A stretch of DNA of 64,000 nt from contig NC_017955.1 in the NCBI RefSeq assembly GCF_000306785.1, positions 3,658,001 through 3,722,000 of the forward strand. Reading direction: 5' to 3'. Made by a program: the position numbers and the translations under genes. This document shows positions 18,108 to 64,000 of this stretch, in pieces. Within the stretch, counting starts at the first letter, position 1. The number at the start of each line of letters is the position of its first letter. Below the pieces are notes generated by a model that saw only the letters and a program-made list of their open reading frames with translations, was not told where the DNA came from and searched no databases. Source of the DNA: Modestobacter italicus (GTDB lineage: Bacteria; Actinomycetota; Actinomycetes; Mycobacteriales; Geodermatophilaceae).

Positions 18108-19031
18108 ATGGCGATCCGGCTGGACGACCTCCTTGCGTCATTTCGTCGGCACCTGCGAGCGGCCAGCAAGGCACCTCGGACGATCGAGCTGTACAGCCAG
18201 AGCGTCCGCTACTTCAGTCAGTGGCTGGTTGCCCATGACCGGCCGGCGACCTTGGACGAGTTGAGCCGGCATGCGATCAGCGCCTGGCTGGCCGAGCTGG
18301 CCGACACATGTGAAGCGTCCACCGTGGCCACGCGGATGCGCGGGATGCGCCGGTTCTGCCGCTGGCTGGTGTCCGAGGGAGAAGTGGACAAGGCGCCGAC
18401 CGACGGCATCGAGATCGCCACGGCACCGGACAAGCCGGTGCCCGTCCTGACGGACGTGGAGATCGCCGCACTGCTCAAGACCTGCACGGTCGGCCGCGGC
18501 CGCCCCGGCGTCTTCTCACGACCGATCTTCTTCGGGCGCCGCGACGAAGCCATCCTGCGGCTCCTGCTGGACACGGGCATCCGCGTGTCCGAACTCTGCG
18601 GACTGACACTGGACGACGTCGATCTCGAACGGGAGCTCGCCTACGTCACCGGGAAGGGGTCGCGACCTCGCGTCGTGCCGTTCGGCGCCAAGACCGGCCA
18701 GGCCATCGACCGCTACCTGCGGGTCCGAGCCCTGCACCCCTATGCCAGCTCACCGCGGCTATTGCTGGGCCTGCGCGGCCCCATGACCCCCGACGGCGCC
18801 CGCGAGGTGCTCAACGTCCGCAGCGCTCAAGCTGGCATCGAGGGCGTGCACCCGCACCGGTTCAGGCACACCTTCGCCCACCGCTGGCTCGCCGGCGGCG
18901 GCCAGGAGCGCGACCTCATGATGCTGGCCGGTTGGCGCAGCGACGACATGCTCTCCCGATATGCCGCCTCGACCGCGGTCGAACGGGCGCACGAGGCGCA
19001 TCGTCGTCTGAGTCTCGGCGACCGCCTGTAG
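18108..19031 (+). CDS. Tyrosine recombinase / integrase
   Basis: A 307-residue XerC/XerD-sized recombinase with a SAM-like N-terminal core-binding domain (residues 8-90, [17 protein letters not shown]) and a complete catalytic set: Arg159 (GIRVSEL), Lys183 (GKGSRPR), His250 and Arg253 (HRFRH), Trp276 replacing the second His (AGWRSDDM) and Tyr285 (SRYAAS). It lies 55 bases after the repair gene, and coding density and GC content drop right after it, so it is more likely an element integrase than the housekeeping Xer protein. No att repeats are visible around it. The element may be decayed, or the enzyme may be domesticated. Confidence 0.88.
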
Positions 19032-47374: not shown

Positions 47375-47868
47375 GGCCACGCCCGACCTGCCGGGAGTCG
47401 AAGCCCACTTTGGTGTAACGACTACAGCCGGCGGCGTACCTCCGCTAGGTCACCCCGTGTCTGGCGGGGGTACGTCTTCGCGGCGACGGTCGTGCAAGGG
47501 GCTGTCGGCGCGAGTCCCAAATGACGCGCGCCTGTACGGCTTCAAAATCGGAGCCGAGCCAAGACGGCTCGACCCGCAAAGCTTCCAGGTATCAGCGACC
47601 CTGCGAATTGATCTTGACCTAGTTGATCAACGACGACAGTTGATGAATAGGCAAGCTGACCAGCCAAGACGCGTTGGCCGACGTTGACGGCATTCGGTCG
47701 TCACAGCACGTTTTCGATGAGTAAGCGATGCCTGGACGACAGGATTAATTGCACCGCCAGGCGTCGATCCGCTCCCAGCACGCAACCACTTGGATAAGGG
47801 AAGCGGGGGTCTGGACACGTCCAGAATCCTAAAATGGGGAGTGACGCCGCTAACTGCGTGCCAAGGGT
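47375..47868. other. Intergenic region, relatively AT-rich
   Basis: About 490 bases, with a local drop in GC around 47590-47720 that includes the palindrome TTGATCAA. No gene, tRNA or repeat array recognised. It may be the junction of an inserted segment. Confidence 0.45.
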
Positions 47869-48711
47869 CTAGCTTGCGGTGAGCGCGGCGATCGAGTCTC
47901 GGATGGGTCCTTCAACGTTGTGGTAACCGTTCGCGTGAAGGAAGTCTCGTAGAGCCAAGTCGCACAGCTCGGCCAGCGGTCGACGCATGCTCCAGCTCCG
48001 CAGCGCCTTCGCCGCGTACCCTTCCGGCGGCACGAAGGCCTGCTGGTCCCCCGCCGCCCGGGAGGGCACCGCGCCCGGGAAGGTCAACCGCTGCCAGGAG
48101 ACCGCCCCCTTGTCCGCAGTGCTGATGGTGGGACTGACGGTGAAGGTCCAGTCAAAGCGGCGAGGCAGATGGAACCGCCGATGTCCGAAGGCGGCGGCGT
48201 ACTCCGGACTTCCCACAGCGGCGTGCACCGCACCGAGCACCTCAAGGATGCTCATGACCGAGATGCCGACCTGCCCCGCTTTGGTGATGGTCGTCGGGAT
48301 GGCACAGCAGAGGTCAACCCGCCCCGCTGCGTGCGCCCACGCGTAGCCGTGAGCTGGCCCGTTCGGGGCGTCGAAGCGGACACCGTGCTGTTTCGAGGAG
48401 TGAGCAGGCTGGTCGCCGACCCAGCGACCGAAGGCGGTGCGCACTAGCTGCACTGCAAGGTCGGGGTTCCCTCCTGGTCTGCGCAGCGATCGGTCGGGTG
48501 CGCAGCACACCAGGACTCGCACCTGGTCGATCGACGAGTCCGCGCGAGCAGCGAGCCACCCCGCCCCGTCGGCGATGGGCCGATGGTCGGGGAGGACGTG
48601 ACTGCGCACAAACACCGGGAGCCGTGCCCCCCACTTGAGCAGCAACCCGACCACCGCGGTGACTGCCGAGCCGCTCGCCGCCGCGATAACAGCTGTCTGC
48701 ACGCCCGACAT
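47869..48711 (-). CDS. Unknown protein with N-terminal membrane segment
   Basis: A 280-residue protein. Residues 5-25 (QTAVIAAASGSAVTAVVGLL) form a likely membrane anchor; the rest is soluble, with segments such as RVDLCCAIPTTITKAGQVGI and WSMRRPLAELCDLALRDFLH. I do not recognise a family. The ATG at 48711 has GGGGAGAAGCC ahead of it and is preferred to a longer frame. The gene stands alone between gene-poor stretches. Confidence 0.68.
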   Translation of the reverse strand: MSGVQTAVIAAASGSAVTAVVGLLLKWGARLPVFVRSHVLPDHRPIADGAGWLAARADSSIDQVRVLVCCAPDRSLRRPGGNPDLAVQLVRTAFGRWVGDQPAHSSKQHGVRFDAPNGPAHGYAWAHAAGRVDLCCAIPTTITKAGQVGISVMSILEVLGAVHAAVGSPEYAAAFGHRRFHLPRRFDWTFTVSPTISTADKGAVSWQRLTFPGAVPSRAAGDQQAFVPPEGYAAKALRSWSMRRPLAELCDLALRDFLHANGYHNVEGPIRDSIAALTAS

Positions 48712-48938
48712 GGCTTCTCCCCTAGTCCGAGCCACCGACGGCACTCGCCATCGAACCCCACTTCCACCGCGCCCGCGCGAACACTGACGGTAGCTGCCCG
48801 TCATCATCGAGCTCCCCGACGAGCCAGCTCGTGACGCCATCCCACCGCGCAGCTTCAGCGGGCCACCGATCGGGACTGCCCAGGGTCCAGTTGACTCCTT
48901 GCCGATGAAGCTGCGGCCTCGCTACAAGGATCAGCACC

Positions 48939-49142
48939 GTGCCCAAGCCGTTGCCCGAGAAGTTCCGGGCTGACGTGGTTACCGTTGCCCGGCAAGGCGA
49001 CCAGTCGATCGCGCAGGTCGCGGGGAGCTTCGGGGTCTCTGAATCCTGCCTGGGCCGGTGGCTGAAGATCGCCGACCGCGAAGACAGCGTCTCCGGTCCA
49101 ACCTCACCGTCGACCATCCCCCGCACTGCCAGGCCGAGCTGA
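48939..49142 (+). pseudogene. IS3-type transposase OrfA remnant
   Basis: A 67-residue fragment whose first ~50 residues match the start of IS3-family OrfA: PEKFRADVVTVARQGDQSIA, then QVAGSFGVSESCLGRWLKIA, an HTH. Normal OrfA proteins are about 90-110 residues with a leucine zipper; here the sequence becomes unrelated after DRED and stops. No OrfB and no terminal inverted repeats are visible. A relic. Confidence 0.7.
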
Positions 49143-50103
49143 CGACGTTCCCCGATGTCCGCCGGAGTCCGGAAAGGGCTGGTGAGCAGGGGGTTTACCG
49201 ATTCGGCGAACAACGGCGAACGAGCCCGAAATAGGGTCGAACTGCAACCACAAGTGCAACCAAAAGTCCGGGTGGATAACGAGCCTCGATGGCACCGCTG
49301 AAGACATCTGCCCGCGCCCGAGCCCGCGCTCTTGCGCCGGGTCTACAGCTGCCGGCCCTGGACGGCCTAGACAGTCCCAGCCGACCGCTGGACTGCCGAT
49401 GAGACAGCGATGCGACCAGCCACGCCGCCACCGCGCTCGCAGCCTTCACCACAGGCCTCACCGTCGCGGCGACCCTGCGTCGGCACGCCGTGCACCGTCT
49501 GCCCGTGGAGCCGGGCGGGACCATTACAACCCTCGCCGCGATGGCGCCGGGCGCTGACTACGACGCCGTCGTGCTGCCCCTCACCCGTCCCGTCCCGTCC
49601 CGTCGCTGGACAGGCGCACCAGCTGCCAGAGTCGCCGGCCAAGTGAAGGGACAGCGGCGGCCTGACGAAGGCCGGTGCGCCGTGCGGGGCCCGGGCGAGC
49701 ACCGGCAGTCGCTGCCACCTTCACCCGATAGCCGCCTGAGCGCCGAAGATCTGCACCGCCTCGACATATCTGCACCGCCCCGACGCCCCGGAGCTCCTGA
49801 GGCCTCGCACCGGGTTCCATGCTGGCCATGCCGGTTCAATCCCGGTCACCCGCTTCACGCGATTCCGCAGGTGACCCGCCCCTCAGGCGTTGCGGAGAAG
49901 CTGTGGAGGAGCCTATGAAGCGGTCGTTTGAACCCCTTCATGACCCCTGCATACCGATGAACAGGTCACAATTGGTCACGGCGCCAGCCTGAATCCGGGC
50001 TGGTCCCGGCCCCTGATCGGCCCCCGACGGGGTCCGCCGTGACCACGGATGGGTTACGTCGCCTACTCATCGGGGTGGTCGGGCGACCGCCGCCGCAGGG
50101 CAG
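49143..50103. other. Gene-poor region containing a tRNA-like fragment
   Basis: About 960 bases with no convincing protein gene. The one structured feature is the tRNA T-arm/acceptor-like piece at 49831-49858. It lies between the IS remnant and the exonuclease fragment, as expected for an element boundary. Confidence 0.5.
49831..49858 (+). other. tRNA 3'-end-like fragment (possible attachment site)
   Basis: CCGG-TTCAATC-CCGG (49831-49845) is a canonical T-stem with a 7-base T-loop, followed by TCACCCGCTT, which resembles an acceptor strand. The 5' acceptor, D-arm and anticodon arm are absent upstream, so it is not a tRNA gene. Such 3' pieces are typical of att sites left by elements that integrate into tRNA genes. 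Confidence 0.45.
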
Positions 50104-50559
50104 GTGACAGGTGATGCCAGACCGTACCTGGACCGTTGGCGCCGGCGCTCGCCTGTTGCGCCCAACCCTCTCCTTGAAGCGGAGGGCTGCCCCTGCCACC
50201 TGCCGATGCCCCTCGCCGACCGGTGGGTGCACTCCGTTCTTAGGCATCACGACACGCTAGACAGGAACACGGAACGATCACTGACCGGAACTACCTTCCG
50301 GGTCATGACCGAGGTCCTCTCCTCAGCGGTCCTGCCCGCCGAGATCGCACACCGCTATCGGTACGGCTATGCGGTCGTGGACGGTGAGCCTCCGGTCTGC
50401 GCTGCCAGTGACCGGATCCTGCAGGTCGCGGTCACTCAGATGGCCGCCGCCAGGTCGATCGAGTCGATCTGGTCCACGCTGTTAGACCCTGGCTGCGATC
50501 CCGGCCCCACGCCAATCCACGACCTGACCCGCGCGAACATTGGTACAGAGTCATCATGA
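50104..50559 (+). pseudogene. Truncated DnaQ-like 3'-5' exonuclease
   Basis: From about residue 75 (AEIAHRYRYGYAVVDGEPPV) the frame matches the Exo I region of DEDDh exonucleases of the actinobacterial DnaQ-like type: the DxE pair is present (VVDGE, usually VVDVETTG), then DRILQVAVTQMAA, STLLDPGCDPGPTPIHDLTR. The Exo II and Exo III motifs and the rest of the ~180-residue domain are missing: sequence of this kind ends about 50540 and the frame stops nine codons later. The stop overlaps the STAND gene's ATG by four bases. It is most likely a gene cut by insertion of the defence cargo. The N-terminal 30 residues may not be coding. Confidence 0.65.
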
Positions 50560-53500
50560 TTAGTCTCTTAGAGATCCTTCCTTACGAGGGCTCCAGCGCC
50601 AAGTCGTGGGAGGAACTGTCTTATCAGGTCCGACCACGCAATGTAGGCGTCACCGAGACTCGCAAGACTAAGGCGCCGGACGGGGGCGTTGAGTGGTACG
50701 AACTGTACAGCGACGGCCACCACGAGGGCTTTCAAGGCAAATTCTACGAGAACCTTTCGAGAGCGATCGGCGACATGGGGCGGAGCGTCCGGACGGTAGC
50801 CACGGATCGCCCCGACATGACCGTTCTCACCTTTGTTGTCCCCTTCGACTTCACAGACACTGCGGGCAAGACGAAGTCGGACCAGGATCGATGGACGGAC
50901 GCCGTGGCACGCTGGAAGTCCACCATTGAAGGAGCAGACAGGCTCGACTTTCGTATCATCCGCGGGGGCGACGTCCTCGCAGAGTTGTCAAAGGCCGAGC
51001 ATGCAGGGCGCCGGGCATTCTGGTTCGGAGATGCTGAAATTTCGAGCGCTTGGATGACCAGTCTCGTGGCCGTCGCCAGGCAAGTCGCTGGCGAGCGGTA
51101 CACGCCCGAGGCTCACACGGACACAGACGTCGAGAACACTCTGCAGGGTCTAGCGGTCTCGAACAGCTACATCGCGGAGACGCAGGCTCGCTTAGTGCGC
51201 CTGTCTGCGGCGATGAAGACAGCTAGCTGGTCATCTCGTTCAGATTTGATAGCCGACCTCGACGGCAGCATCAGGAGCCTAGTATCGGACAGTCGTCCAG
51301 TGCATGCGTGGGCTCCGCATCTTCGGCAGTCACTCAGCCATATCCGTAACGCACTTGAACCACTGCCAACTAAGAACCATTCTCCCCTCAGGTACTCAGC
51401 CGACCTTGCGCAAAAGCGACTCGAGCAATCACTGAATGCTGCCGAGGACCACCTAGCCAACGCCGCATCTCTGGCCGCCGAGTCGCGAGAGTTGGGACTC
51501 CATGGCGAGGCCGGACAAGGTAAGACTCACGCCGTCCTACACTTTGCTGAGCAACTGCTACAGCAAGGGCAGCCCGTCATTACGATCATGGGCGAGGCGG
51601 TCACCGCAAGCGGTTGGTGGGCTGCCATCAAGGAGCAACTTCGTTCTGACGTATCCCTGGATGTTTTCCTGTCCGCTCTAAGTGCTCGCGCGGAAGCTTC
51701 CGGAACACAAGGCCTGATCGTCATCGATGGCTTAAATGAAAGCCAGGACGCCAGGCGCTGGCGCACGGACCTGCCGTCACTCCGCGCGGCGATGTCCACG
51801 CACGAAAATTTGTCACTGCTCGTGACCTGGCGCACTGACTACAGGAAGTTGATCGCCCCTCCACGCGACTTTCCGCTCCTTCGCCATCGCGGCTTTCGCG
51901 GGAACGAGCGCGAGGCCATACATAACTATGCCAGGCACTATAAGATCGCGGCGCCTGAACACTTCTCTGTGGACACAGCCTTCGACAATCCCTTGCTCCT
52001 GAAGCTCTATTGCGAGGTTCAGGCGCGTAATCCCCGCTTGCAGCGCACGGGCGCTTCACGCTCCGAGATATTTGGCGCCTTCGTTGAAATGCGTCTAGAG
52101 GACATCGGCGACAAGCTGGAGCTCAGCCCTGCCCGCCTGCAGGTCGTGCGGGAGGGTCTGAACGTCGTGTGTGATTTGCTCCTATCGGACAGGGCGCGCT
52201 TCGTCGACCGCACCCGCATAGAACCTCTAGTCGACGCTCTACTTCCAGAGCGGACTCTTTGGCCGAAGACTCTTTTTGCAAGCCTCGTGAGCATGGGCTT
52301 ACTCGAAATCCGACCACGGTATGACGGAGCAGAGGCCGTCAGCCTGCCGTTCCAGGCCTTCTCTGAGTTCGTCCTTTGTCGACGCCTCCTCGAGCGATTG
52401 GAAACGGATACGCCGACTACGGAGCAGCTAGCTGACGTCCTTGGATCACGGCATGACCTTTGGAGACCCGCAGCAACCCTTCTCCCCGAGCTGTACGCAA
52501 GAGAACTCCAGGACGTTCTGCCGGAGGCGTCAAGTCGAAACCGTGCGTCAGAGTTGCGGGAGTACACGCTCCGAAGTTTTGCGGAGCGATCCCGGGCGGC
52601 CTTTTCCCAGCGAGCACTTTCCCTGCTGGAGGCGTACCTACACGCCCCTGCGGCGCCTGACGAACTTAGTAATATCGCGGGCGACGTGTTCGTAGCTTTG
52701 AGTGTCAGGCCGGGGCACGCGGCGAATGCAGACTGGCTGCATGAAGCTCTCGCGAAACTGACGATGGCCGACCGTGACGCAAGCTTTGGTGTCATGACCT
52801 ACTTCGTTCTCGAAGAATCTGACGCCTTCGGTCGCCTCTTGGATTGGGCATCGGCGACCGCCGCGGATAGAGATTCCGAACACATTCGCCTGTCCGCGAA
52901 GATGCTGCTGTGGCTGGAGTCGTCACCGAACAGAAGCTTGCGCGACGTTAGTTTGCGAGCTCTCGTGAACCTGGGAACCGTTCACCCGGAAATGCTCTCC
53001 GACCTGATTGACGCCTTCCGTTCGAACAACGATGCCTACGTTGTCCAGCGCCTGGGGGCCCTAGTGTTCGGATGTCTACTTAGGGGATGCCCGTCCACCA
53101 GCGATGCGGCCATCATCGAGTCGTTGATTTCTTGGCGTGCCATCGGCCTACCGGTCGATGTTTTGGCCCGAGACAGCCTAAGGGGGTCAGCGTATGCGCT
53201 CGCACACCGGGGCGCCATAGACCAGGAGCGCGCGCGAGGATTTGACCCGCCGTATCAAGCTGACCCGCCGTCGGAACCAGACACGGCCGAAGCGCTCATG
53301 GAGCGACATCAGCGCGCGGAACAGGGTAACCCACGGGAAGCCGCAGCGATTATGCGTTCTTGCCTTAGCGAGTGGGGCGATTTTAACAAGTATGTGGTGC
53401 GCTCAGACGTCGGTACCTTTAGCTGGGCCCCTCTGACTGGCCCGCGGCCCACGTCGCGAGAGGATGTCGTGAGTGCCGATTGGGCTGGAAGGTGGATAGC

Positions 53501-54674
53501 TCAGCGGGCCGTCTCGCTGGGCTGGACAGCTGAGGCTTTCGAAGCATTCGAAGGCCATGCCCATGCGCACCGGGGCCGCGAGGGTCATAAGTCTGAAAGA
53601 TTCGGTAAGAAGTACCAGTGGATCGCATTGCACGAGCTACTTGCCCGGCTAGCTGACAACTATCACTTCGGGTCTCGGTGGTCAACCGATCCGGGGTCGT
53701 TTCAAGGCCCTTGGGAGTGGATGGGCCGAGACATCGACCCTGGACTGCCTCCCTCGAAGTCGGCACCCGATGGCCGCAAAGTTGAGCTAGACGTAGTGCA
53801 TGAGCCCACATGGTTAGGGTGCGATCCTCAGCTCGACGTGGAAATCGACGAACGCTCGTGGGTGAGTGCCGAGGAAGACTGGCCCCAAGGCCCCGTGCGA
53901 ATGGATGGACCAGGCGGACGAAAGCAGATAGCCCTGTATCGGTATAGCTCGTGGGGCAGGCCGGCTGCTGGTGACGGAACTGCCTGGGATCGCCGACAGT
54001 GGCTCATCACCACCTCGTGGCTGGTCAAGAGCGACGAGATGCATGACGCGCTGGAGACGCTGAGGTTGCGTTCGTTGCGAGGCAGGTGGATGCCTGAACG
54101 CCGTGCCACAACGTCTCGATACTTCGGCGAGGCTTCGTGGTCGCCGATCAATCTTGACCCCCTCGCTACAGCGACCTGGGAGCCCATAGACCGGGGACCC
54201 GGTGATGCCATCAATGTGTTGCCGGCCGTGGAACAGTATCTCTGGGAGGGAAACGTCCTCGACTGCTCCATAGATGAAAGTGTTGACGTACACAAACTCA
54301 TAGACCTACTGATGGTAGGTGCCGAGTGGGATGGAACTAGGGCCGTGTGGACTTTCCGAGGAGAGGTTATAGCCTGCGCGATACGGTCCAGATCAGAACT
54401 GTTCGCTGGCGAGCACTCGGCTTTGCTATGTGATGAGACGTGGCTACTGGCTCGTTTGGAAGCTTTGGGCCTAAGTCTCGTCATCGGAACGCTTGGCGAG
54501 AAGCAGTCAATTAGGGATGTGAGCCACCGAGCTAGGAGTATCTGGTGCACCATGAGCCAGATTGCGTCCCTCGACGTCACCGCCGGCTATCAATCCGAAC
54601 CATTACGAACCGAGACTGAGGACAATAGTGAGTGGACAGGCCCTTTGGATGGAAGCGGCGCTGGACCGGCGTAG
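50556..54674 (+). CDS. Avs-like STAND NTPase with N-terminal PD-(D/E)XK nuclease
   Basis: A 1372-residue protein with three parts. Residues 1-160 look like an Mrr/Cap4-type nuclease: PDGGVEW (Asp42) and GFQGKFY (Gln60-x-Lys62) fit the D...QxK active site seen in effector domains of antiviral STAND proteins. The STAND P-loop NTPase spans about 300-620: Walker A GEAGQGKT (317-324), Walker B LIVIDGLNE (Asp391) and a WRTDYR sensor-like segment. The remaining ~750 residues are helical repeats of the sensor type, with a beta-rich end. Avs proteins bind a conserved phage protein, tetramerise and degrade DNA. Codon use is distinctly less GC-rich than neighbouring genes, pointing to recent transfer. 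Close specificity cannot be assigned. Confidence 0.82.
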   Translation: MISLLEILPYEGSSAKSWEELSYQVRPRNVGVTETRKTKAPDGGVEWYELYSDGHHEGFQGKFYENLSRAIGDMGRSVRTVATDRPDMTVLTFVVPFDFTDTAGKTKSDQDRWTDAVARWKSTIEGADRLDFRIIRGGDVLAELSKAEHAGRRAFWFGDAEISSAWMTSLVAVARQVAGERYTPEAHTDTDVENTLQGLAVSNSYIAETQARLVRLSAAMKTASWSSRSDLIADLDGSIRSLVSDSRPVHAWAPHLRQSLSHIRNALEPLPTKNHSPLRYSADLAQKRLEQSLNAAEDHLANAASLAAESRELGLHGEAGQGKTHAVLHFAEQLLQQGQPVITIMGEAVTASGWWAAIKEQLRSDVSLDVFLSALSARAEASGTQGLIVIDGLNESQDARRWRTDLPSLRAAMSTHENLSLLVTWRTDYRKLIAPPRDFPLLRHRGFRGNEREAIHNYARHYKIAAPEHFSVDTAFDNPLLLKLYCEVQARNPRLQRTGASRSEIFGAFVEMRLEDIGDKLELSPARLQVVREGLNVVCDLLLSDRARFVDRTRIEPLVDALLPERTLWPKTLFASLVSMGLLEIRPRYDGAEAVSLPFQAFSEFVLCRRLLERLETDTPTTEQLADVLGSRHDLWRPAATLLPELYARELQDVLPEASSRNRASELREYTLRSFAERSRAAFSQRALSLLEAYLHAPAAPDELSNIAGDVFVALSVRPGHAANADWLHEALAKLTMADRDASFGVMTYFVLEESDAFGRLLDWASATAADRDSEHIRLSAKMLLWLESSPNRSLRDVSLRALVNLGTVHPEMLSDLIDAFRSNNDAYVVQRLGALVFGCLLRGCPSTSDAAIIESLISWRAIGLPVDVLARDSLRGSAYALAHRGAIDQERARGFDPPYQADPPSEPDTAEALMERHQRAEQGNPREAAAIMRSCLSEWGDFNKYVVRSDVGTFSWAPLTGPRPTSREDVVSADWAGRWIAQRAVSLGWTAEAFEAFEGHAHAHRGREGHKSERFGKKYQWIALHELLARLADNYHFGSRWSTDPGSFQGPWEWMGRDIDPGLPPSKSAPDGRKVELDVVHEPTWLGCDPQLDVEIDERSWVSAEEDWPQGPVRMDGPGGRKQIALYRYSSWGRPAAGDGTAWDRRQWLITTSWLVKSDEMHDALETLRLRSLRGRWMPERRATTSRYFGEASWSPINLDPLATATWEPIDRGPGDAINVLPAVEQYLWEGNVLDCSIDESVDVHKLIDLLMVGAEWDGTRAVWTFRGEVIACAIRSRSELFAGEHSALLCDETWLLARLEALGLSLVIGTLGEKQSIRDVSHRARSIWCTMSQIASLDVTAGYQSEPLRTETEDNSEWTGPLDGSGAGPA

Positions 54675-54937
54675 ATCGACATGAAGTTGCTGACCGGCTC
54701 AGCCGAGAAGCCGACTTGACGGGTGCGAGCGCCGATAGCTCAAGGCCTTGGAAACCTCCAGGAGTACATCGATGTCCTGATCTCAGGTGCCGGGACTCGT
54801 TGTGACCTGTCGCGGTACCGGCCGCAAGATAGGTCGTCGACTGGCCTTAAGCGGCCCACTATGGGGGAGTAAGCCCTTCGGCCGGGTCAGGGCTGGGGGC
54901 ATCAGCCGAGGCAGTTGGTGACCCTGGCGGTCGACGG

Positions 54938-56773
54938 GTGAGCCGGGGAATGGAAAGTCCAAACGGACAGACCGACGTACGACGGGACAGGCGAATGTCG
55001 ACAGGACGTGCCACGCGGCGAAGCACCAGGCCGCGGACCGCCCGCAGGGCCGCCGCACGGGCCGCGCGCAAGGGCGCCGACCGTGCCGAGCGACGTGGCC
55101 GTCAAGTCCCGCCGACCGTTGATGGGTTCAGCGCCGCGCTGGCTGACCGCGGGTACGACGGCGTGGCAGAGGCGCTCATCTCGCGACACAACCAGCGCAT
55201 GCAGCGCCTACATGAGGCCGCCGAAGTCCTGCAACAGTGCGCCTTTCCGGCGCTGTCGGGCTACTTGCCGATGCAGCTCGTGGCCCAAGAGCTCGGCGCC
55301 CATCCGGGGCGGTGGCCGTCCCACAGCGGCGGCACGTGGCCCGATCATCTGGCGTGGGGGTTGGACAGCGTCGCGGCCGCGGTCCGGCTCATGCTAGCGA
55401 TTCAGCCGGTTGGCGCGGCGGTCCTTTCCCGCACGCAACTGGAGCGATGGTCGTCGAACCTGCGGTTCAACAGCGCTCTCGCCCAGATCCAGGGCGAAGA
55501 CACTGCCGCGTGGCTGACGCGCCTGTGGACTTCGCCAGGCGTATCCCTGATCCCGCGCTCCTCGAGCGTGGGTGCACTGTTCGCCGACCTCAGCGAGGTG
55601 TTGCACGGCCGTGGACCGCTCATGCCCCTGGTCTGGCTCGACGTCGCCGACGTCACCGCACTCCCAACCGGCGACCAACTTCGGTTGATGGATACCCTCA
55701 CTGACGCTCAGCTCGTCAGCTTGACCCAGCTGCGCAACTGCCTTGCCACCGCGGCCGAAGAGAAGGACTGGCCGGTGCTCGCTGAGACCGCCGCGGCCAT
55801 CCGGCTCATCGAGCCCGCCCACAGCTGGACCCCCGACGTCGCCGCAACCGTCGTCCCCCTCATCCCGAGCCACTTCGCTGGTCTGGAAGGACAGCTCGGG
55901 GCGCTAGCCACCGGCCACGCCAAGAGCATGCACGCGCTGCGCCACGGTCAAGATCCCGAGTACCCATCCGAGACGTGGCCGCTGTTCGCGTTCGGTCAGC
56001 AACGCTTCCGCGCGCTCATCACCGCGAGGAGGGCGTTCGAGCATGAGCGGGAGCTTCTTGGTGAGCGCTTTGGCGAGCACGGCATCGAAGAGTTGGGAAC
56101 CGAGGCGGTCCTTTCCGGTGAAATGGCCGCGATGCTTGCGGTCTGGCTGCGCGAGCGCAACACCGCGCCGCTGGCTGCAGACGCATTTGCGGTCTGCGCC
56201 TCGGCACTACGGTCAGCGCACTGGCTGTGGCTTGAGGACGACGACCGAGCGATGGGATGCCTGCGGTGCGTGATTGAACAGCTCGCGCGCGCTCGGACCT
56301 GGCGGGTGAAGCCGGAACGGGCGACCAGGATTGAAGCCACCCAGAACGCCACTCCACGAGACTGGATCGAAGGCTCCGGCTGGCGGCGCCTCGGCCTGAT
56401 GAACAGAGCCCTCGGGGAGTTCGCGCACGGTTCGACCAGCGCGGACTGGTCTCTCGCCCGCGACGCGCTCGTCGCGCTGCAATCCGATCCGCAGGACGAG
56501 CTCGCGCGGTTCACCGGTCGAAGCCACGCCCTTTCCGCGCTCATCTTCATGGTCTCAGTGGAGTGCTCGGCGTGGGTGGACCAGTTCAGCACCGAACTAG
56601 GCGAGGCGTACCGCAAGGTCATCCGTATCAACGACGACCAGGCCAACCGAGCAATCGAAGCGCTGATGAACCGGGCGTGGAACGCGCGAGCCACCCCGTT
56701 GCGGCGCGAGCGGACTACCAGTCCCCACGACGACCGCGGAGCAGCGCCCGGCGGGTCCGGCGACGCCTCCTAA
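54938..56773 (+). CDS. Large unknown protein next to the STAND gene
   Basis: A 611-residue protein. The first ~60 residues are very Arg/Ala-rich and may be disordered or nucleic-acid binding; the rest is predicted helical, with no membrane segment and no motif I recognise (for example LSGYLPMQLVAQELGAHPGR, WRRLGLMNRALGEFAHGSTS). The base composition is that of the host, unlike the STAND gene. The start is uncertain: GTG at 54938, ATG at 54950 or ATG at 54995. It lies 263 bases after the STAND gene on the same strand, so it could be cargo or an accessory gene. Confidence 0.72.
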   Translation: MSRGMESPNGQTDVRRDRRMSTGRATRRSTRPRTARRAAARAARKGADRAERRGRQVPPTVDGFSAALADRGYDGVAEALISRHNQRMQRLHEAAEVLQQCAFPALSGYLPMQLVAQELGAHPGRWPSHSGGTWPDHLAWGLDSVAAAVRLMLAIQPVGAAVLSRTQLERWSSNLRFNSALAQIQGEDTAAWLTRLWTSPGVSLIPRSSSVGALFADLSEVLHGRGPLMPLVWLDVADVTALPTGDQLRLMDTLTDAQLVSLTQLRNCLATAAEEKDWPVLAETAAAIRLIEPAHSWTPDVAATVVPLIPSHFAGLEGQLGALATGHAKSMHALRHGQDPEYPSETWPLFAFGQQRFRALITARRAFEHERELLGERFGEHGIEELGTEAVLSGEMAAMLAVWLRERNTAPLAADAFAVCASALRSAHWLWLEDDDRAMGCLRCVIEQLARARTWRVKPERATRIEATQNATPRDWIEGSGWRRLGLMNRALGEFAHGSTSADWSLARDALVALQSDPQDELARFTGRSHALSALIFMVSVECSAWVDQFSTELGEAYRKVIRINDDQANRAIEALMNRAWNARATPLRRERTTSPHDDRGAAPGGSGDAS

Positions 56774-57003
56774 CGAACTCCGCACCTGTCGCTAATCCAG
56801 ACGGACGAAGCTCAAGAACCGCCTTTGGGACACCGGGAAGGTCGAGGCCTGAGCCGGCTCTCCCGCGAGGCATCGCCCGCGAACCGTCTATGCGGAAGAC
56901 CCAACCTGGCCGAGCAGCACTGGAGACTCCAAGATCGAGCGGCATCACACCTCATGCACTTCGGATGATCTTGATGTGGGACAGGGCTTCCTAGCGTCAG
57001 AGC

Positions 57004-60000
57004 GTGATGACGCTGCACAAGCTCACGGCAGGGAACGGGTACACGTATCTGACGCGCCAGGTGGCTGCGCAGGACGCCGCCGGGAGCAGCGGCCGAGGCC
57101 TCGGGGACTACTACAACGAGAAGGGCGAGTCTCCGGGAACGTGGATGTGTCGCGGGCTTGCCGGTGTGCCGGACTTCCCCGTCGGGAAGCAGGTCACCGA
57201 GGCGCAGATGGTCGCGCTGTTCGGCCGGGGACGTCACCCCAACGCCGTCCAAATAGAGCAGGCCGCACGCGCTGCGGGCATGGACGCGGAGCGCGTCGAT
57301 CAGGCCAGCAGACTCGGCCGGCCGTACCTGGTCTTCGAGCAAGGCAATGAGTTTCGGCGGCGCTGCGCGAGCAAATTTCGCGAGTACAACGCCTCTCGTG
57401 GGCTGGACGCCGCCGCTTCAGTCCCGGAGAAGGAGCGGGCCGCCGTCCGCACCGAGGCTGCCCGCGCCATGTTCGCCGAGCTGTACGGCCGTGCTCCTGC
57501 CGACGCACGTGAGCTGTCCGGCCATCTCGCCCGCATCTCCCGCCAGTCGACAACAGCCGTTGCCGGATACGACCTGACCTTCAGCCCGGTGAAGAGCGTC
57601 TCGACGCTCTGGGCAATCGCGCCACGCGGCATCGCCAGGGTCATCGAGAAGGCACACGACGATGCCGTCGCCGACACCCTGAGCTGGTTGGAAGACCACG
57701 CGACCTACACCCGCACCGGCCGCCACGGGGTCGCCCAGGTCAACGTGCGAGGGCTGATCGCTGCAGCCTTCACGCACCGCGACTCCCGCGCCGGCGACCC
57801 GGACCTGCACACGCACGTCGCAATCAGCAACAAGGTGCAGACCCTCGACGGTCGCTGGCTCGCTCTCGACGGGCGGCCGCTCTACAAGAACAACGTCGCT
57901 GCCTCCGAGCGCTACAACACCCGACTTGAAGCGTTCCTGGTGGAGCGTCTGGGAGTGCGCTTTGGCGAGCGCCCCGGCACTGATGCCGGTAAGCGGCCGG
58001 TCCGCGAGATCGTCGGCGTTGACGGGCCACTCCCCCGCCTCTGGTCGTCGCGGCGCGCAGCGATCGACGCTCGGCGGGCGGTGCTCTCGACTCGCTTCCA
58101 GACCGACCACGGGCGACCACCGACGGCCGTCGAGGCAATCGCGCTGGCACAGCAGGCCAACCTGGAGACGCGGCGGGCCAAGCACGAGGCTCGGTCCCGA
58201 GCCGAGCAGCGGTCCACCTGGCGCGCGGAGGCACTCGCCGTGCTGGGCGGGGAAAGACAACTGCGTAGCTACCTGGCCCGAGTGCTGGACCAGGCCACCG
58301 CGGGCGCGCCGGCCTTCCGACCCTCAAACGCCTGGGTGCTCCAGACGGCCACGCAGGTGATCTCGACGGTCTCCTCCACTCGAGCGACATGGCTGGAGAG
58401 CAACGTCCGAGCAGAAGCCGAGCGCCACGTCCGCACCGTCGGAATTCGGTTGGAAGATCTAAACCGCACCGTCGATGCACTCGTCGGGGCAGCGTTGTCA
58501 CCCCCGCTGTCGACTCGGCTCGACAAGCCCAGCAGGGCCACCGAACCGAGCGCCCTCCGTCGGCCGGACGGCTCGTCGGTCTACACCGTGGCCGGCTCGG
58601 CGATCTACACCTCCAGCACCGTCCTCGCCGCCGAGCAATCCGTGATTGCGGCCGCCGACCGGCGGGATGGACGTGTCACCCCGCCGTCATCCGTCGATCT
58701 CGCACTCTTGGAGTCTGTCGCCAACGGGGTGACGTTGAATGCCGGGCAGGAGCAGCTGGTCCGAGAGCTGGCCACGTCGGGTGCGCGAGTCCAGCTCGCG
58801 CTGGCACCCGCCGGCACAGGGAAGACGACGGCGCTGAGCGTCCTGGCAGCGGCCTGGCGGGCGGGCGGCGGAGACATCATCGGACTAGCTCCGTCCGCCG
58901 CGGCGAGCTCAGTGCTCCGCGACCAGCTGGGCACGACCACCGACACCCTCGCCAAGCTCGTTCACGCGCTGAGCACCGGGCATGACGTCCTTCCCTGGAT
59001 GGACACCATGGGTCCTGAGACGCTCGTCGTCATCGACGAGGCCGGTATGGCCGGCACTGCCGACCTCGCCAGCGTGGTCGAGTTCGTCACCGGTGCCGGC
59101 GGCTCCGTGCGGCTCATCGGCGACGACCGCCAACTTGCCGCCATCGGCGCCGGCGGCCTCCTGCGCGACCTGGCCACCCGATATGGCGCCGTCACCCTCA
59201 CCCAGGTCGTCCGGTTCACTCATCCGGATACCGGCGAGGCCAACCCCGCCGAAGGAGCAGCCTCCCTGGCGCTGAGGGAAGGCGATCCCGCCGCACTCGC
59301 CTACTACGTCGACCACGGCCGCATCCACGTCGGCGACGTCAGCACGGTCACCGAGGACGCCTACTCCGTCTGGGCGGCCGACCGGGCAGCCGGCCGCGAT
59401 GCCATCCTGCTCGCGCCCACTCGCGGCCTGGCCGCTGAGCTGAACACCCGCGCGCGCCACGACCGTCTGGCCAGGGAGGGACAACCCAGCGGACCAGAGG
59501 TCACGCTGGTCGACGGCTCGCGCGCCTCGGTCGGCGACGTGATCTTCACGCGCCGGAACAGGCGCAGGCTGCAGACGTCCGCGACCGACTGGGTGAAGAA
59601 CGGCGACCGCTGGACCGTCGCCGCCGTCGATCCATCCGGCGCCATCGACGTCGTCGACGAGCGCACCGGGAGGCAGGTCACCCTGCCGGCCGACTACGTG
59701 CACAGACACGTCGCCCTCGGCTACGCGACGACCGTGCACGCCGCGCAAGGCGTTACCGCGGACAGGTCCTACGTCCTCGCCACCGGCGTGGAGTCGCGCC
59801 AGCAGCTGTACGTAGCAATGACCCGCGGTCGACACGAGAACCACGTCTTCCTGGCCGTGGCAGGGGACGGCGACCCGCACAGCGCCATCACCCGCGATGC
59901 GCTGCTCCCGCCCACCGCCGTCGAGCTGCTCGGCCGTGTCCTCGACCGTGACGACGCGTCGATCTCCGCAGGAAGCTGGGCTCGGACGCTCGCCGACCCA

Positions 60001-62481
60001 GCCGCCCGACTCGGCAAGAGCAGCGACTGCTACCACCACGCCCTCACCACCGCGGCGGAGCAGCAACTCGGTCGAGCCGCGGTCGAAGCCATCGACTCGG
60101 CCAGCGAGGCGGCGGTCAGCGGCCTGACCCTGCACGACGCCTACCCCGCGCTGCGCGGGCGTCTGGCGCTGTGCGCCCTCGCCGGCCACGACCCCGCCGC
60201 ACTACTTCATGGGGCACTGAGGTCGCCGCGAGGGCTGGAGGACGCGCGGGACGTCGCCGCGGTCCTGGACTGGCGCATCGACCCTGGGAGCCTCAGCTCG
60301 ACCGAGGTTGCACCGCTGCCGTGGCTGCCCGGTGTGCCACAGACGCTGGCGGCCAACAGTGAATGGGGTCCCTACCTCGACGAGCGCCAGCGCGAGGTCG
60401 CGGCGCTGGCCGACGAGGTGTCGGAGCAGGCGCGCTCCTGGACGCCGGTGAGTGCACCGACCTGGGCCCGGCCGTTCCTCGATCGGGACGTTGCACTGGT
60501 CGCGGACCTCGCTGTCTGGCGGGCCGCCCACGGTGTCGACCACGGGGATCTGCGGCCCACCGGCCCGGCGCAACGTGCAGCGGTCGACGCCCGGGTGCAG
60601 CGCACGCTCGATGCCCGCGCCGCGCAATTGGTCGGTGAGGCGGGTTCGGCCACCGCACGGTGGCGACCTCTGGTCGACGGCCTTGACCCGCGGGTTGCAT
60701 CCGACCCGTACTGGCCGTTGCTCGCCGACCGGTTGAGCATCGCCGAACGCGCCGGTGTCGACGTCGCCGCAGTCCTCCGCGCCGCCGGCGGCCAACGGCT
60801 ACCCGACGAGCAGCCGGCAGCCGCGCTTTGGTGGCGCGTGTCCGCCCACCTCTCCCCCGCTGCTGCGACCGCCACGCAGCCATCCGCGCGGTCGCTGCGA
60901 CCGAGCTGGACTTCGGACCTGATCGACGTCCTCGGGGCAACAGCCGCCAACCGGGTGGCCGCCGATCCTGCGTGGCCCGGCCTCATCGCCGCCGTCGAAC
61001 GAGGCCGCGACGCCGGCTGGCAGCCAGCCGACCTGTTGTCCACAGCATTCGACCTGTTGCGGAGCGGTCAACCCGACGACGAGGAGCTGCGCCCTGAAGA
61101 GCTGGCCATTGCCATCGCGTGGCGCATCGGCCAGCTCCTCGAGTCAGACCGCCGCATCAGTAAGGAGCAGTCGACGACGGACGACGTCCCGGACTGGTCG
61201 ATCGGCCTGACCGAACCAGACGAGACCGAGCCAGCGCCTGAGCCGACGCTCGATCCCCTGCGGAGCCTTGCCGACGACGACGGCGAAGCACAGCCTGGCC
61301 GCGTTCGATTGCTCGAACTCAATGAGCAGGCCGCCGTCTTCTTCACCTCCCACTTCCGCGACGCCTGGGCCCCGGGCTATCTGGCTCGACGTCTCGGCAT
61401 GGATAAGACCGGAAACGTGGACGCTCTCGAGGGGTTCACCATCGGCTATGCGCCGGCCAACTGGACGGCGTTGACCGACCATCTGCGACAGCTAGGTGCC
61501 ACTGACGCCGAGATCGTCGCGGCCGGGCTGGGCAGCTACGCGTCGACCGGTCGGGTGATCGACCGGTTCCGGGACCGCCTCGTCTTCGCGATCCGCGGCG
61601 GCGACGGGATCCGCGGCTGGATCGGCCGCCGCAACCCCGCCCGCGACGACGACCGAGGACACGGATCTCCCAAATACCTCAACACCGCGCAGACGGAGCT
61701 CTTCACCAAGGGCAACGAGATGTACGGCCTCACCGAGGCGATGCCAGCCTTGGCCGCCGGCGCCACGCCGGTTCTGGTCGAGGGCCCACTCGACGTGCTC
61801 GCCGTGACACTGGCAGGCCGAGGCGCCTACGTCGGCATCGCGCCGTTGGGCACGTCATTCACCGACGCGCAGGCCGACCTCCTACGTCCTCACATCCAGC
61901 CGGGACGACGCGGCGTCATCGTCGCCACCGACGCGGACCGCGCTGGTCGGCTAGCTGCTGAAGGAGCCTTCTGGCGACTCACCGCTCGCGGTGACGATCC
62001 CGGTCAGCTGGTCAGCCCCGCCGGCAAGGACCCCGCTGAGGTCCTGGAGATGGCCGGGCCCGAGGCGTTGCGTCGCGCACTTGACTCATCGGCATCACTC
62101 GCTGCGTCCATCGTCCGAGCACGCGTCGACGACTTCGCGGATCGCTTGGACACAGTCGAGGGGCAGGTCTTGGCCACCCGCCAGGCGGCCGCGGTCATCG
62201 CCGCACTGCCGCCGTCCAGCTGGCCAGCTCACCTGGTGGACGTCATCGTGCGCACAGGCATCGCCCCCGACATCGCCGCCGCCGAGGTCATGGACGCGGC
62301 CTCGCGTAATGACCTCGCCAGCCCGGACGACGGAACGGCCAGCACCGGCGCCGCCACCGCACCTGCGGGTTGGCTGCCGAGGTCGACTGCGAACAGGGCG
62401 CTGGCGGTCAGCGACCGCGAGGCACTTGCCGCGGCTGGCCCACGGATCCTGGCTCCCATGGGAGCACCACTGCAGCGGTAG
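57004..62481 (+). CDS. MobF relaxase-helicase-primase fusion (TraA/TrwC type)
   Basis: A 1825-residue conjugation protein. The TrwC relaxase domain (about 1-400) has candidate catalytic tyrosines at 13 and 15 (NGYTYL) and the metal site DLHTHV (His269, His271). The RecD2/TraI-type helicase (~570-1000) has Walker A APAGTGKT (601-608), Walker B VVIDEAGM (Asp678-Glu679) and TTVHAAQGVTADRSYV. The C-terminal ~350 residues add a DnaG-like primase: a RLLELNEQAAVFFTSHF start and a TOPRIM with Glu1593 (VEGPLDVLAV) and Asp1643/Asp1645 (ATDADRAGR). It nicks oriT, unwinds and may prime the transferred strand. Start GTG 57004 or ATG 57007. Confidence 0.92.
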   Translation: MMTLHKLTAGNGYTYLTRQVAAQDAAGSSGRGLGDYYNEKGESPGTWMCRGLAGVPDFPVGKQVTEAQMVALFGRGRHPNAVQIEQAARAAGMDAERVDQASRLGRPYLVFEQGNEFRRRCASKFREYNASRGLDAAASVPEKERAAVRTEAARAMFAELYGRAPADARELSGHLARISRQSTTAVAGYDLTFSPVKSVSTLWAIAPRGIARVIEKAHDDAVADTLSWLEDHATYTRTGRHGVAQVNVRGLIAAAFTHRDSRAGDPDLHTHVAISNKVQTLDGRWLALDGRPLYKNNVAASERYNTRLEAFLVERLGVRFGERPGTDAGKRPVREIVGVDGPLPRLWSSRRAAIDARRAVLSTRFQTDHGRPPTAVEAIALAQQANLETRRAKHEARSRAEQRSTWRAEALAVLGGERQLRSYLARVLDQATAGAPAFRPSNAWVLQTATQVISTVSSTRATWLESNVRAEAERHVRTVGIRLEDLNRTVDALVGAALSPPLSTRLDKPSRATEPSALRRPDGSSVYTVAGSAIYTSSTVLAAEQSVIAAADRRDGRVTPPSSVDLALLESVANGVTLNAGQEQLVRELATSGARVQLALAPAGTGKTTALSVLAAAWRAGGGDIIGLAPSAAASSVLRDQLGTTTDTLAKLVHALSTGHDVLPWMDTMGPETLVVIDEAGMAGTADLASVVEFVTGAGGSVRLIGDDRQLAAIGAGGLLRDLATRYGAVTLTQVVRFTHPDTGEANPAEGAASLALREGDPAALAYYVDHGRIHVGDVSTVTEDAYSVWAADRAAGRDAILLAPTRGLAAELNTRARHDRLAREGQPSGPEVTLVDGSRASVGDVIFTRRNRRRLQTSATDWVKNGDRWTVAAVDPSGAIDVVDERTGRQVTLPADYVHRHVALGYATTVHAAQGVTADRSYVLATGVESRQQLYVAMTRGRHENHVFLAVAGDGDPHSAITRDALLPPTAVELLGRVLDRDDASISAGSWARTLADPAARLGKSSDCYHHALTTAAEQQLGRAAVEAIDSASEAAVSGLTLHDAYPALRGRLALCALAGHDPAALLHGALRSPRGLEDARDVAAVLDWRIDPGSLSSTEVAPLPWLPGVPQTLAANSEWGPYLDERQREVAALADEVSEQARSWTPVSAPTWARPFLDRDVALVADLAVWRAAHGVDHGDLRPTGPAQRAAVDARVQRTLDARAAQLVGEAGSATARWRPLVDGLDPRVASDPYWPLLADRLSIAERAGVDVAAVLRAAGGQRLPDEQPAAALWWRVSAHLSPAAATATQPSARSLRPSWTSDLIDVLGATAANRVAADPAWPGLIAAVERGRDAGWQPADLLSTAFDLLRSGQPDDEELRPEELAIAIAWRIGQLLESDRRISKEQSTTDDVPDWSIGLTEPDETEPAPEPTLDPLRSLADDDGEAQPGRVRLLELNEQAAVFFTSHFRDAWAPGYLARRLGMDKTGNVDALEGFTIGYAPANWTALTDHLRQLGATDAEIVAAGLGSYASTGRVIDRFRDRLVFAIRGGDGIRGWIGRRNPARDDDRGHGSPKYLNTAQTELFTKGNEMYGLTEAMPALAAGATPVLVEGPLDVLAVTLAGRGAYVGIAPLGTSFTDAQADLLRPHIQPGRRGVIVATDADRAGRLAAEGAFWRLTARGDDPGQLVSPAGKDPAEVLEMAGPEALRRALDSSASLAASIVRARVDDFADRLDTVEGQVLATRQAAAVIAALPPSSWPAHLVDVIVRTGIAPDIAAAEVMDAASRNDLASPDDGTASTGAATAPAGWLPRSTANRALAVSDREALAAAGPRILAPMGAPLQR

Positions 62482-62546: not shown

Positions 62547-63041
62547 TCAGGAGCCAGCGGTGCCGAGGAAGGCAACGTACCGGCTCTCCGCAGGCCAGGC
62601 TTGGTGCCGGCCGGTCCGGCAGGTGCTCTCCCCGAGACGCCCGACCATGCGGTCGCAGAACATCGGGAAGGCGTAGCGGTTCCACTCCTCGACCAGCTCA
62701 GGTCCAGTCGCGAGCTCCGCCTGCCAACGCAGCACCGTCAGCACGGGCAGCTCGCGGGCGATGTGCGGGTGGCTGCGCCAGCAGGCCGGGACCATGGCCG
62801 CGGGTCGCCAGGCGTACTCGTGGTTGATCCAAGCAGCGACGTCACCGCACCAGTCCCACATCGCAGCGCCCAGCTCGCTGCTGCACCCGGCCGGTTCCCA
62901 CGGCCGCTCGATGTCTGCCGCAACTCCTGACCTCGCTGAGCGCCCCGGCTCCCGGCGGCGGTCCTCTGCCAGCAGTTCGAGCGCTCCGAGCACGATCAGC
63001 GGTGGGGTGGGAAAGGGCAGCAGGATCACCAGGACCCCCAT
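62547..63041 (-). CDS. Conjugative-element protein of unknown function (DUF4913-like)
   Basis: A 164-residue protein. A short hydrophobic start (VLVILLPFPTPPLIVLGALE) is followed by a soluble region with WINHEYAWRPAAMVPACWRS, then HPHIARELPVLTVLRWQAEL and RYAFPMFCDRM, a Trp-rich pattern resembling small proteins carried next to coupling-protein genes on actinobacterial elements. Assignment to DUF4913 is tentative. It overlaps the coupling protein gene by 16 bases in the same direction, so it is translated after it. Confidence 0.72.
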   Translation of the reverse strand: MGVLVILLPFPTPPLIVLGALELLAEDRRREPGRSARSGVAADIERPWEPAGCSSELGAAMWDWCGDVAAWINHEYAWRPAAMVPACWRSHPHIARELPVLTVLRWQAELATGPELVEEWNRYAFPMFCDRMVGRLGESTCRTGRHQAWPAESRYVAFLGTAGS

Positions 63042-64000
63042 GCCGCCGGGTCGTCCCGTCCGGGGTCCAGCCGGTGGTCACGCGCGTAGGCCACCGCTGC
63101 CGCTGTTCGCACGGACAGGTCGACCTGTTCGATGCGGGCGGCCGCGACGTCGGCCCGGGCGGCATCCATCTCTGCTTTGAGCCGCGCGCCGTCCTTGCCG
63201 TCCAGGCAGCGTCGCAGCCGGGCGACGATGGGTGGCGCGGTGCCGGCCACCACCAGGGCGTGCCGCTCGGGCACCCGACGGATGTCCCCGGGACGCAGCA
63301 CCCGCACGTCCTCCCCGGACCGTGACGTGCCGACGCCGCCAGGGCCGTCGGTGACGGTCTGCCGGCTGATCCGCACGTCGTCCAGGAGCTCGGACAGCTC
63401 CCGGTAGAAGTGGACGTCCTTGCCCCCGCCGAAGACGACCAGCGTGTTGGTGAGCCCGAACAGCGAGCGGGCCTCGTCCTCTCCGTACGAGACGACCATC
63501 TGCTTCCAGGTCTGCGTGGCGTAGATGAACGACAGACCGAGAGCCCGCTCGTTGGCCATGCGCACTCGCAGGGTGGGCAGCGGCGTCGTCGACGGCAGCT
63601 CGTCCAGGCAGGCAAGAAAGCACGGCGTCATCCGGCCGTGCGCCGACGTCGTTGCGACGCTGAGCGCCGTATCGAGGACGTGCTCGGCGACGGCGGTCAT
63701 CAGCGGCGCCGCCGAGGCGTAGGGATCGTCGCGGCCGAGCAGGTAGACGGTTCCCTGTCGGTTGATCAGGTCGACCAGGTCGGTCGCAGGCCGTTGGGGC
63801 GACGGCACGCAGCGGGCACGAATGTCCGGCTGGAAGAACAGCGCCATCGCCTGCTGCACCGTCGTGACGGTGTTGCCGACCGTGTCCGCGCTGCCGTGCA
63901 GGGCACCGGCCAGCAGCCCGTCCCAGAAGCGGGCCGCATGCGGGTGTTGCTGGAGGATCTCGGCCGGCTGCTCAGCTGCCACCGGGTTGGCGACCCACTC
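63026..64000 (-). CDS. VirD4/TraG-type conjugal coupling protein, C-terminal part
   Basis: The last ~324 residues of a type IV coupling protein; the frame is open to the window edge, so the Walker A half lies outside. Visible are the Walker B CFLACLDELPSTTPLPTL and the helicase-like SFIYATQTWKQMVVSYGEDE with TNTLVVFGGGKDVHFYREL, the TraM-recognition/TraG C-terminal pattern. Coupling proteins feed the relaxase-DNA complex to the secretion channel. Together with the relaxase it identifies a conjugative or mobilisable element. Confidence 0.88.
   Translation of the reverse strand, partial: EWVANPVAAEQPAEILQQHPHAARFWDGLLAGALHGSADTVGNTVTTVQQAMALFFQPDIRARCVPSPQRPATDLVDLINRQGTVYLLGRDDPYASAAPLMTAVAEHVLDTALSVATTSAHGRMTPCFLACLDELPSTTPLPTLRVRMANERALGLSFIYATQTWKQMVVSYGEDEARSLFGLTNTLVVFGGGKDVHFYRELSELLDDVRISRQTVTDGPGGVGTSRSGEDVRVLRPGDIRRVPERHALVVAGTAPPIVARLRRCLDGKDGARLKAEMDAARADVAAARIEQVDLSVRTAAAVAYARDHRLDPGRDDPAAWGSW

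Follow-up and report, generated by a model that had tools for sequence, protein, structure and literature searches.

A 64,000-nucleotide stretch of the Modestobacter italicus chromosome (contig NC_017955.1, positions 3,658,001 to 3,722,000; hereafter, the window) contains a gene for a 1372-amino-acid nuclease-STAND-sensor protein, which we identify, with a probability of roughly 85%, as a divergent but ordinary single-gene immune receptor of the Avs2 lineage (AVAST type 2), carried as cargo by a conjugative element. The gene, referred to here as avs2, has an ATG start and no internal stop and lies on a host chromosome assembled as a single contig of 5.58 Mb; this open frame and the motifs described in an initial annotation of the DNA were confirmed as real. 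The gene is laid out as follows:

50556-54674, + strand: avs2-like gene encoding the nuclease-STAND-sensor protein
50556-51035, + strand: N-terminal PD-(D/E)xK nuclease domain, residues 1-160, with E19/E20, D42, E46 and Q60-x-K62
51411-52355, + strand: STAND/NACHT-like NTPase with the helical region that comes after it, residues 286-600
51504-51527, + strand: Walker A, G317-T324, with K323 (motif conservation in a 26-row alignment)
51714-51740, + strand: Walker B region, residues 387-395, with D391, N394 and E395 (same alignment)
52356-54671, + strand: C-terminal sensor, residues 601-1372, predicted from profile match and model as a helical solenoid followed by an alpha/beta domain
53595-53660, + strand: highly conserved stretch of the sensor, ERFGKKYQWIALHELLARLADN, residues 1014-1035

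The initial annotation had read the protein as a STAND nuclease of the Avs family, and the hidden Markov model search against Avs families that it proposed returned clear Avs similarity. In a PADLOC scan, six Avs2 models matched the protein (E 3.8e-222 to 2.6e-93), with PDC-M54A (E 0.0046) and Avs1b (E 0.045) next; one of the Avs2 models, PDLC02164, covers residues 5-972, nuclease included, and a second stretch, for 738.8 bits, although with a length of 1504 it is longer than the window protein. An insert of ~65-80 residues after residue ~965 is present in the relatives L023, L024 and L027 and absent from the window protein. A comparison of the single sequence with solved chains (E up to 10) gave the Avs2 structure 9o4e as the sole match (E 3.2e-72), including the sensor stretch 977-1317 (76 bits), and profiles built from 26 proteins aligned with 9o4e over residues 165-636 (E 1.8e-95) and 625-1449 (E 1.9e-155). 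Both a STAND NTPase core and a C-terminal sensor homologous to those of the Avs2 lineage are therefore present, the likeness to 9o4e extending over almost the whole sensor and its GKKYQWIA region. In contrast, the first ~164 residues of 9o4e are unmatched by the window-family profiles (the A4 match begins at 165), and an N-terminal effector of the 9o4e type was not found by sequence, the 21-row A5 profile giving no 9o4e match at E up to 10.

The NCBIfam Avs2 equivalog NF041813 scores the window protein at 509.4 bits, under its curated cut-off of 1000, which two clade relatives (562 and 552 bits) and a further two relatives (540 and 690 bits) also miss. It is passed by L044 (1695 bits) and by L028 (1424 bits), the NCBI-named Avs2 of Rhodothermus marinus pRMAR01, and the model begins at residues 175 and 176 of these passing proteins, leaving the effector outside it. 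L028 carries the same nuclease type ahead of its Avs2 core and also matches the Avs4 model across that nuclease, but shares 24% identity with the window protein. NF041813 is a naming rule, stricter than the Avs2 lineage. Because six PADLOC Avs2 models match the window protein but NF041813 remains below cut-off, and because four of the tested relatives fail likewise, the protein is, judged by sequence, an Avs2-lineage branch beyond the reach of NCBI's rule. The receptor part belongs to a known kind, but the lineage is little studied.

A named genome collection provided 33 loci with relatives, some partial, from which 26 full-length open reading frames (ORFs) were obtained; L074, which starts in another frame, was excluded from the 26-row alignments, which hold the window protein and 25 relatives. 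Residues E19, E20, D42, Q60, K62, G317, G322, K323, D391, N394 and R426 are identical in 26/26 aligned proteins, and E46, T324 and E395 are kept in 25/26; the nuclease motifs at D42 and QxK62, Walker A at 317 and Walker B at 391 all lie where the initial annotation had read them. A wider 13-sequence alignment leaves Q60 and K62 invariant, with D42 missing from the invariant list (L024 starts past D42, and L025 is off by one residue). The nuclease model (overall predicted local distance difference test score, pLDDT, 88.0) contains an alpha-beta-beta-beta-alpha-beta core (helix 14-24; strands 32-37, 47-51 and 56-61; helix 67-84; strand 90-94), and D42, E46, Q60 and K62 supply the acidic residues and (E/Q)xK motif of PD-(D/E)xK or Mrr-like nucleases. 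Pfam Mrr_cat or similar models matched two of 21 family members (best E 0.052) and gave no match to the window protein, and Pfam AAA/NACHT matches to the NTPase region fall below cut-off; the model of the NTPase and helical region matches the fold of NLRC4, NLRP3 and Avs4. The Avs4 structure 8dgf resembles the nuclease domain weakly by sequence, with the catalytic register aligned (E 0.19), and the N-terminal 600 residues by fold (Foldseek, model residues 1-600, E 2.1e-8), but differs in the sensor: the NCBIfam Avs4 model reaches just E 0.029 over residues 43-109, no PADLOC Avs4 model matches at E up to 1, and a whole-protein match including the portal-sensing C-terminus of Avs4 was not found. 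Taken together, the alignments and models show that the nuclease keeps its catalytic residues, that the STAND NTPase keeps its Walker motifs and that the sensor is of the Avs2 type.

The sensor had initially been described as unlike anything nameable and as made of repeats. The first description was rejected on its alignment with residues 625-1449 of 9o4e and on a sensor model that resembles the terminase-bound Avs3 sensor (8dgc); the second was abandoned because ungapped 34-residue self-matching revealed no internal repeats above chance (29 of 100 shuffles equalled the observed best), and no Pfam tetratricopeptide repeat match was found in the sensor. The structure prediction recommended for this region returned a helical solenoid for the first half only (residues ~598-952), the second half being a mixed alpha/beta domain. 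Sequence likeness to Avs3 is low (11% identity; the PADLOC Avs3 models gave no match up to E 1). The Avs2 structure 9o4e was not among the fold-search matches listed, but the library may not include it and this has no bearing on the fold.

Background on Avs triggers and mechanism is provided by studies of characterised relatives (PMC12931631, PMC12724215, PMC13141931, PMC9513070). By analogy, the protein would rest in an inactive state until its sensor is bound by a conserved phage protein made in the late phase of infection; the nucleases would then be brought together through ATP-dependent oligomerisation and cut double-stranded DNA of the phage as well as of the host. The infected cell would die ahead of phage release, an abortive outcome. 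As the trigger we favour, at slightly better than even odds, the large terminase subunit of tailed actinophages; portal or another protein, taken together, would be a lesser but substantial possibility. A related explanation, which we regard as tentative, is that the sensor of this Avs2-lineage nuclease has shifted to a different protein of the phage (a portal, a Ksap-like or an actinophage-specific protein). Two points favour such a shift and weigh against a terminase trigger: the clade is divergent, with three tested members under the NCBI cut-off, and the characterised Avs2 proteins, in the accounts consulted, answer to terminase, Ksap1 or portal. On the other side, the sensor aligns almost full length to 9o4e, its predicted fold is that of the terminase-bound Avs3 sensor, and in a segment-wise comparison with five clade relatives it is about as conserved as the NTPase (33-48% vs 37-42%), which does not suggest rapid retargeting.

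Within the family Geodermatophilaceae, 4 of 112 genomes carry a relative of the window protein, as do 5 of 396 genomes of a phylum sample (own genome included in both counts) and 73 of 72,556 plasmid records (each below 60% identity). Only partial matches, covering 31% and 20% of the query, came from phage records (2 of 50,697). A single-protein scan of genome contigs gave one stretch and no relative; on viral contigs, the closer alignment gave 69 stretches and no relative, and the wider alignment found eight viral loci. Avs2-core proteins stand on viral or prophage contigs at L043-L050, with a quite different N-terminus in L044, L045 and L049. The patchy distribution in the family (4/112) supports mobility, and status as conjugative-element cargo would account for it. 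The five nearest relatives (39-42%) come from two Nocardioides, Hoyosella, Corynebacterium glyciniphilum and an Acidimicrobiia metagenome-assembled genome; a quick 36-row tree groups them with the window protein at a support of 100. Three of them have a defence gene directly upstream, namely type I restriction-modification (RM) in L051 and L053 and BrxL in L052 (with PglZ further up); L054 starts 239 bases from a contig end, and the gene upstream of L060 reads as a transposase.

Lower GC had been taken as a mark of recent acquisition. The GC difference itself stands, at 59-61% in the four 1-kb bins spanning 51001-55000 against 64-72% in the flanking bins. Its use as proof of recent arrival was rejected: because avs2 genes of all five nearest relatives are equally at 59.5-62.9% GC (one of them within flanks of 71%), low GC is weak evidence of recency. 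Overall, the initial annotation is partly supported.

The surroundings of avs2 include these features:

49815-49860, + strand: 3' half of a tRNA-Gly(TCC) gene, a probable remnant attachment site (93.5% identity over 46 bp to intact copies beside two sibling elements)
50305-50559, + strand: 84-amino-acid ORF, a DEDDh exonuclease fragment that keeps just the N-terminal end, its 3' end overlapping the avs2 start by 4 bp
54938-56773, + strand: 611-amino-acid protein between avs2 and the relaxase, with no Pfam, PADLOC or NCBIfam match at E up to 1
56946-57003, + strand: conserved non-coding patch immediately ahead of the relaxase, forming the right-hand limit of the cargo slot; possible origin of transfer (oriT)
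57004-62481, + strand: MOBF/TrwC relaxase-helicase with a primase-like C-terminal part (TrwC E 3.5e-86; MobF 252.8 bits, cut-off 100)
63026-64000, - strand: 3' part of a type IV coupling protein gene, TraG/TrwB-like (TraG-D_C E 1.9e-20)

The placement of the gene on a conjugative element, as first proposed, is upheld by the MOBF relaxase and coupling protein downstream, two components expected of an integrative and conjugative element (ICE). The coupling protein gene and further type IV secretion system genes extend beyond the window, where an NlpC/P60 protein and a TrbL/VirB6-like protein (E 7e-10) follow, together with a candidate VirB4-like ATPase read from motifs, to which Pfam gave no match. 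The relaxase-helicase is fused to a primase part comprising a DnaG-like N-terminal and a Toprim domain. In L051, a relaxase of this type (49% identity over 1034 residues) immediately follows the avs2 relative; the other relaxase matches among 44 loci, L022 and L073, cover the helicase part only and share one Geodermatophilus contig (L073 being a Geodermatophilus poikilotrophus record). The patch before the relaxase, with the core ACACACCT (CACACCT in the window), is present in the window, L098 and L100-L102, and its core also in L051.

A tyrosine recombinase is encoded at 18108-19031, ~31 kb distant. A 34-mer of the tRNA-Gly half, with one base changed, occurs at chromosome positions 1559631 and 1683796, with the relaxase of a sibling element in between, at 1672167; a copy with three mismatches is at 1561923. 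This sibling looks like a ~124-kb element in that tRNA-Gly gene. At the window locus no second copy of the tRNA-Gly half was found with up to three mismatches.

The exonuclease fragment ends where avs2 starts. A longer, 151-amino-acid ORF (50104-50559) matches NCBIfam NF004719 over residues 78-145 (E 3.1e-16), and a distant chromosomal relative (37%) lies inside a longer open frame at 4081620. Since avs2 begins at the end of this fragment, with the 4-bp overlap, it may lack a promoter of its own, which speaks for an inactive remnant, either without a working promoter or decayed in function after capture beside the truncated gene, and against an active receptor. We consider such a remnant quite improbable, as the 1372 codons run without a stop and the catalytic positions are all intact. 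The same 4-bp upstream overlap is also found in the Hoyosella relative, there with brxL (if the script-picked start is right), and may therefore be a means of translation coupling. The 611-amino-acid protein has relatives in two plasmid records, both of Rhodococcus fascians D188 (29.9%), and in one further genome among 23 of the genus, where the relative adjoins genes read by eye as type IV CRISPR-like; other window genes gave no match in that genome, a weak negative given that the gene caller also missed the known 611-amino-acid relative.

The cargo slot upstream of the MOBF relaxase spans 47594-56946 in the window and has counterparts at L098-L104. These siblings are seven of the 13 other relaxase matches of the genus, the remaining six covering part of the query and being left out. 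In all seven, homology to the window sets in 17-58 bases upstream of the relaxase; the content beyond that point differs. In six of these loci we picked by eye 20 of the larger ORFs lying upstream, and 18 matched PADLOC families at E up to 1e-8 (no random-stretch control), some of these families being candidates only (PDC names). The slot holds RmrA and a TIR-like candidate in L098, JetA-B-C-D in L099, type I RM in L101, a SIR2/short-Argonaute set in L102, type IIG RM with ThsB and a short-Argonaute-associated nuclease in L103, and LmuA-B-C in L104; no defence gene was seen by eye in the slot of L100, which had no PADLOC scan. L102 and L103 lie on the same chromosome as the window, giving three elements on one chromosome with different slot sets.

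This relaxase occurs in 50 of 108 genomes of the family. In 15 further elements, the best-ranked relaxase matches with upstream room, the DNA before the relaxase holds mostly metal-resistance, redox, transposition and other accessory genes (by eye, not PADLOC), which counts against a defence hotspot; one exception is L135, where an ORF begins like the RM gene of L103. Because these elements mostly hold other accessory genes, the slot serves for cargo in general and is not reserved for defence; in the nearest kin, defence genes often occupy it.

The position of avs2 one gene upstream of the relaxase could also mean that the STAND nuclease protects the element from competing plasmids or ICEs and not from phages, and the matching slot of a sibling holds the JetA-B-C-D set of the Wadjet system, which acts on plasmids. 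Both observations weigh against an antiphage role, but such a guard is highly improbable: the other sibling cargo is of types usually named anti-phage, and, in the accounts consulted, the sequence or fold kin with known targets (8dgc, 8dgf) sense phage proteins.

The Avs2 proteins with triggers described in the literature consulted come from proteobacteria (E. coli, Klebsiella and Alcaligenes), and the words Avs and AVAST are absent from the main text of a survey of defence in Actinobacteria (PMC10482375) by a whole-word search, which would miss Avs2. Islands with modular defence hotspots are known, as described in PMC12629846. A further proposal can be advanced only tentatively: that the protein belongs to an actinobacterial branch of Avs2 in its own right, equipped with a nuclease of the Avs4 type, which may recognise actinophage proteins new as Avs triggers. 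It would be part of a set of exchangeable defence cassettes that a family of Geodermatophilaceae conjugative elements moves into and out of one relaxase-side slot, siblings in a single genome differing in content (Avs2; the SIR2/short-Argonaute type; ThsB and a short-Argonaute-associated nuclease together with type IIG RM).

The window gene represents an intact, rather divergent Avs2 receptor of a known family in a soil actinobacterium; this receptor probably recognises a conserved protein of phages and responds by cutting DNA. Its clade includes intact actinobacterial proteins in which the nuclease is clear to see, and with these one can ask whether the packaging-protein rule extends to actinophages. 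The relaxase-side slot illustrates the uptake of defence genes by conjugative elements, and the three siblings in one genome provide a natural comparison.
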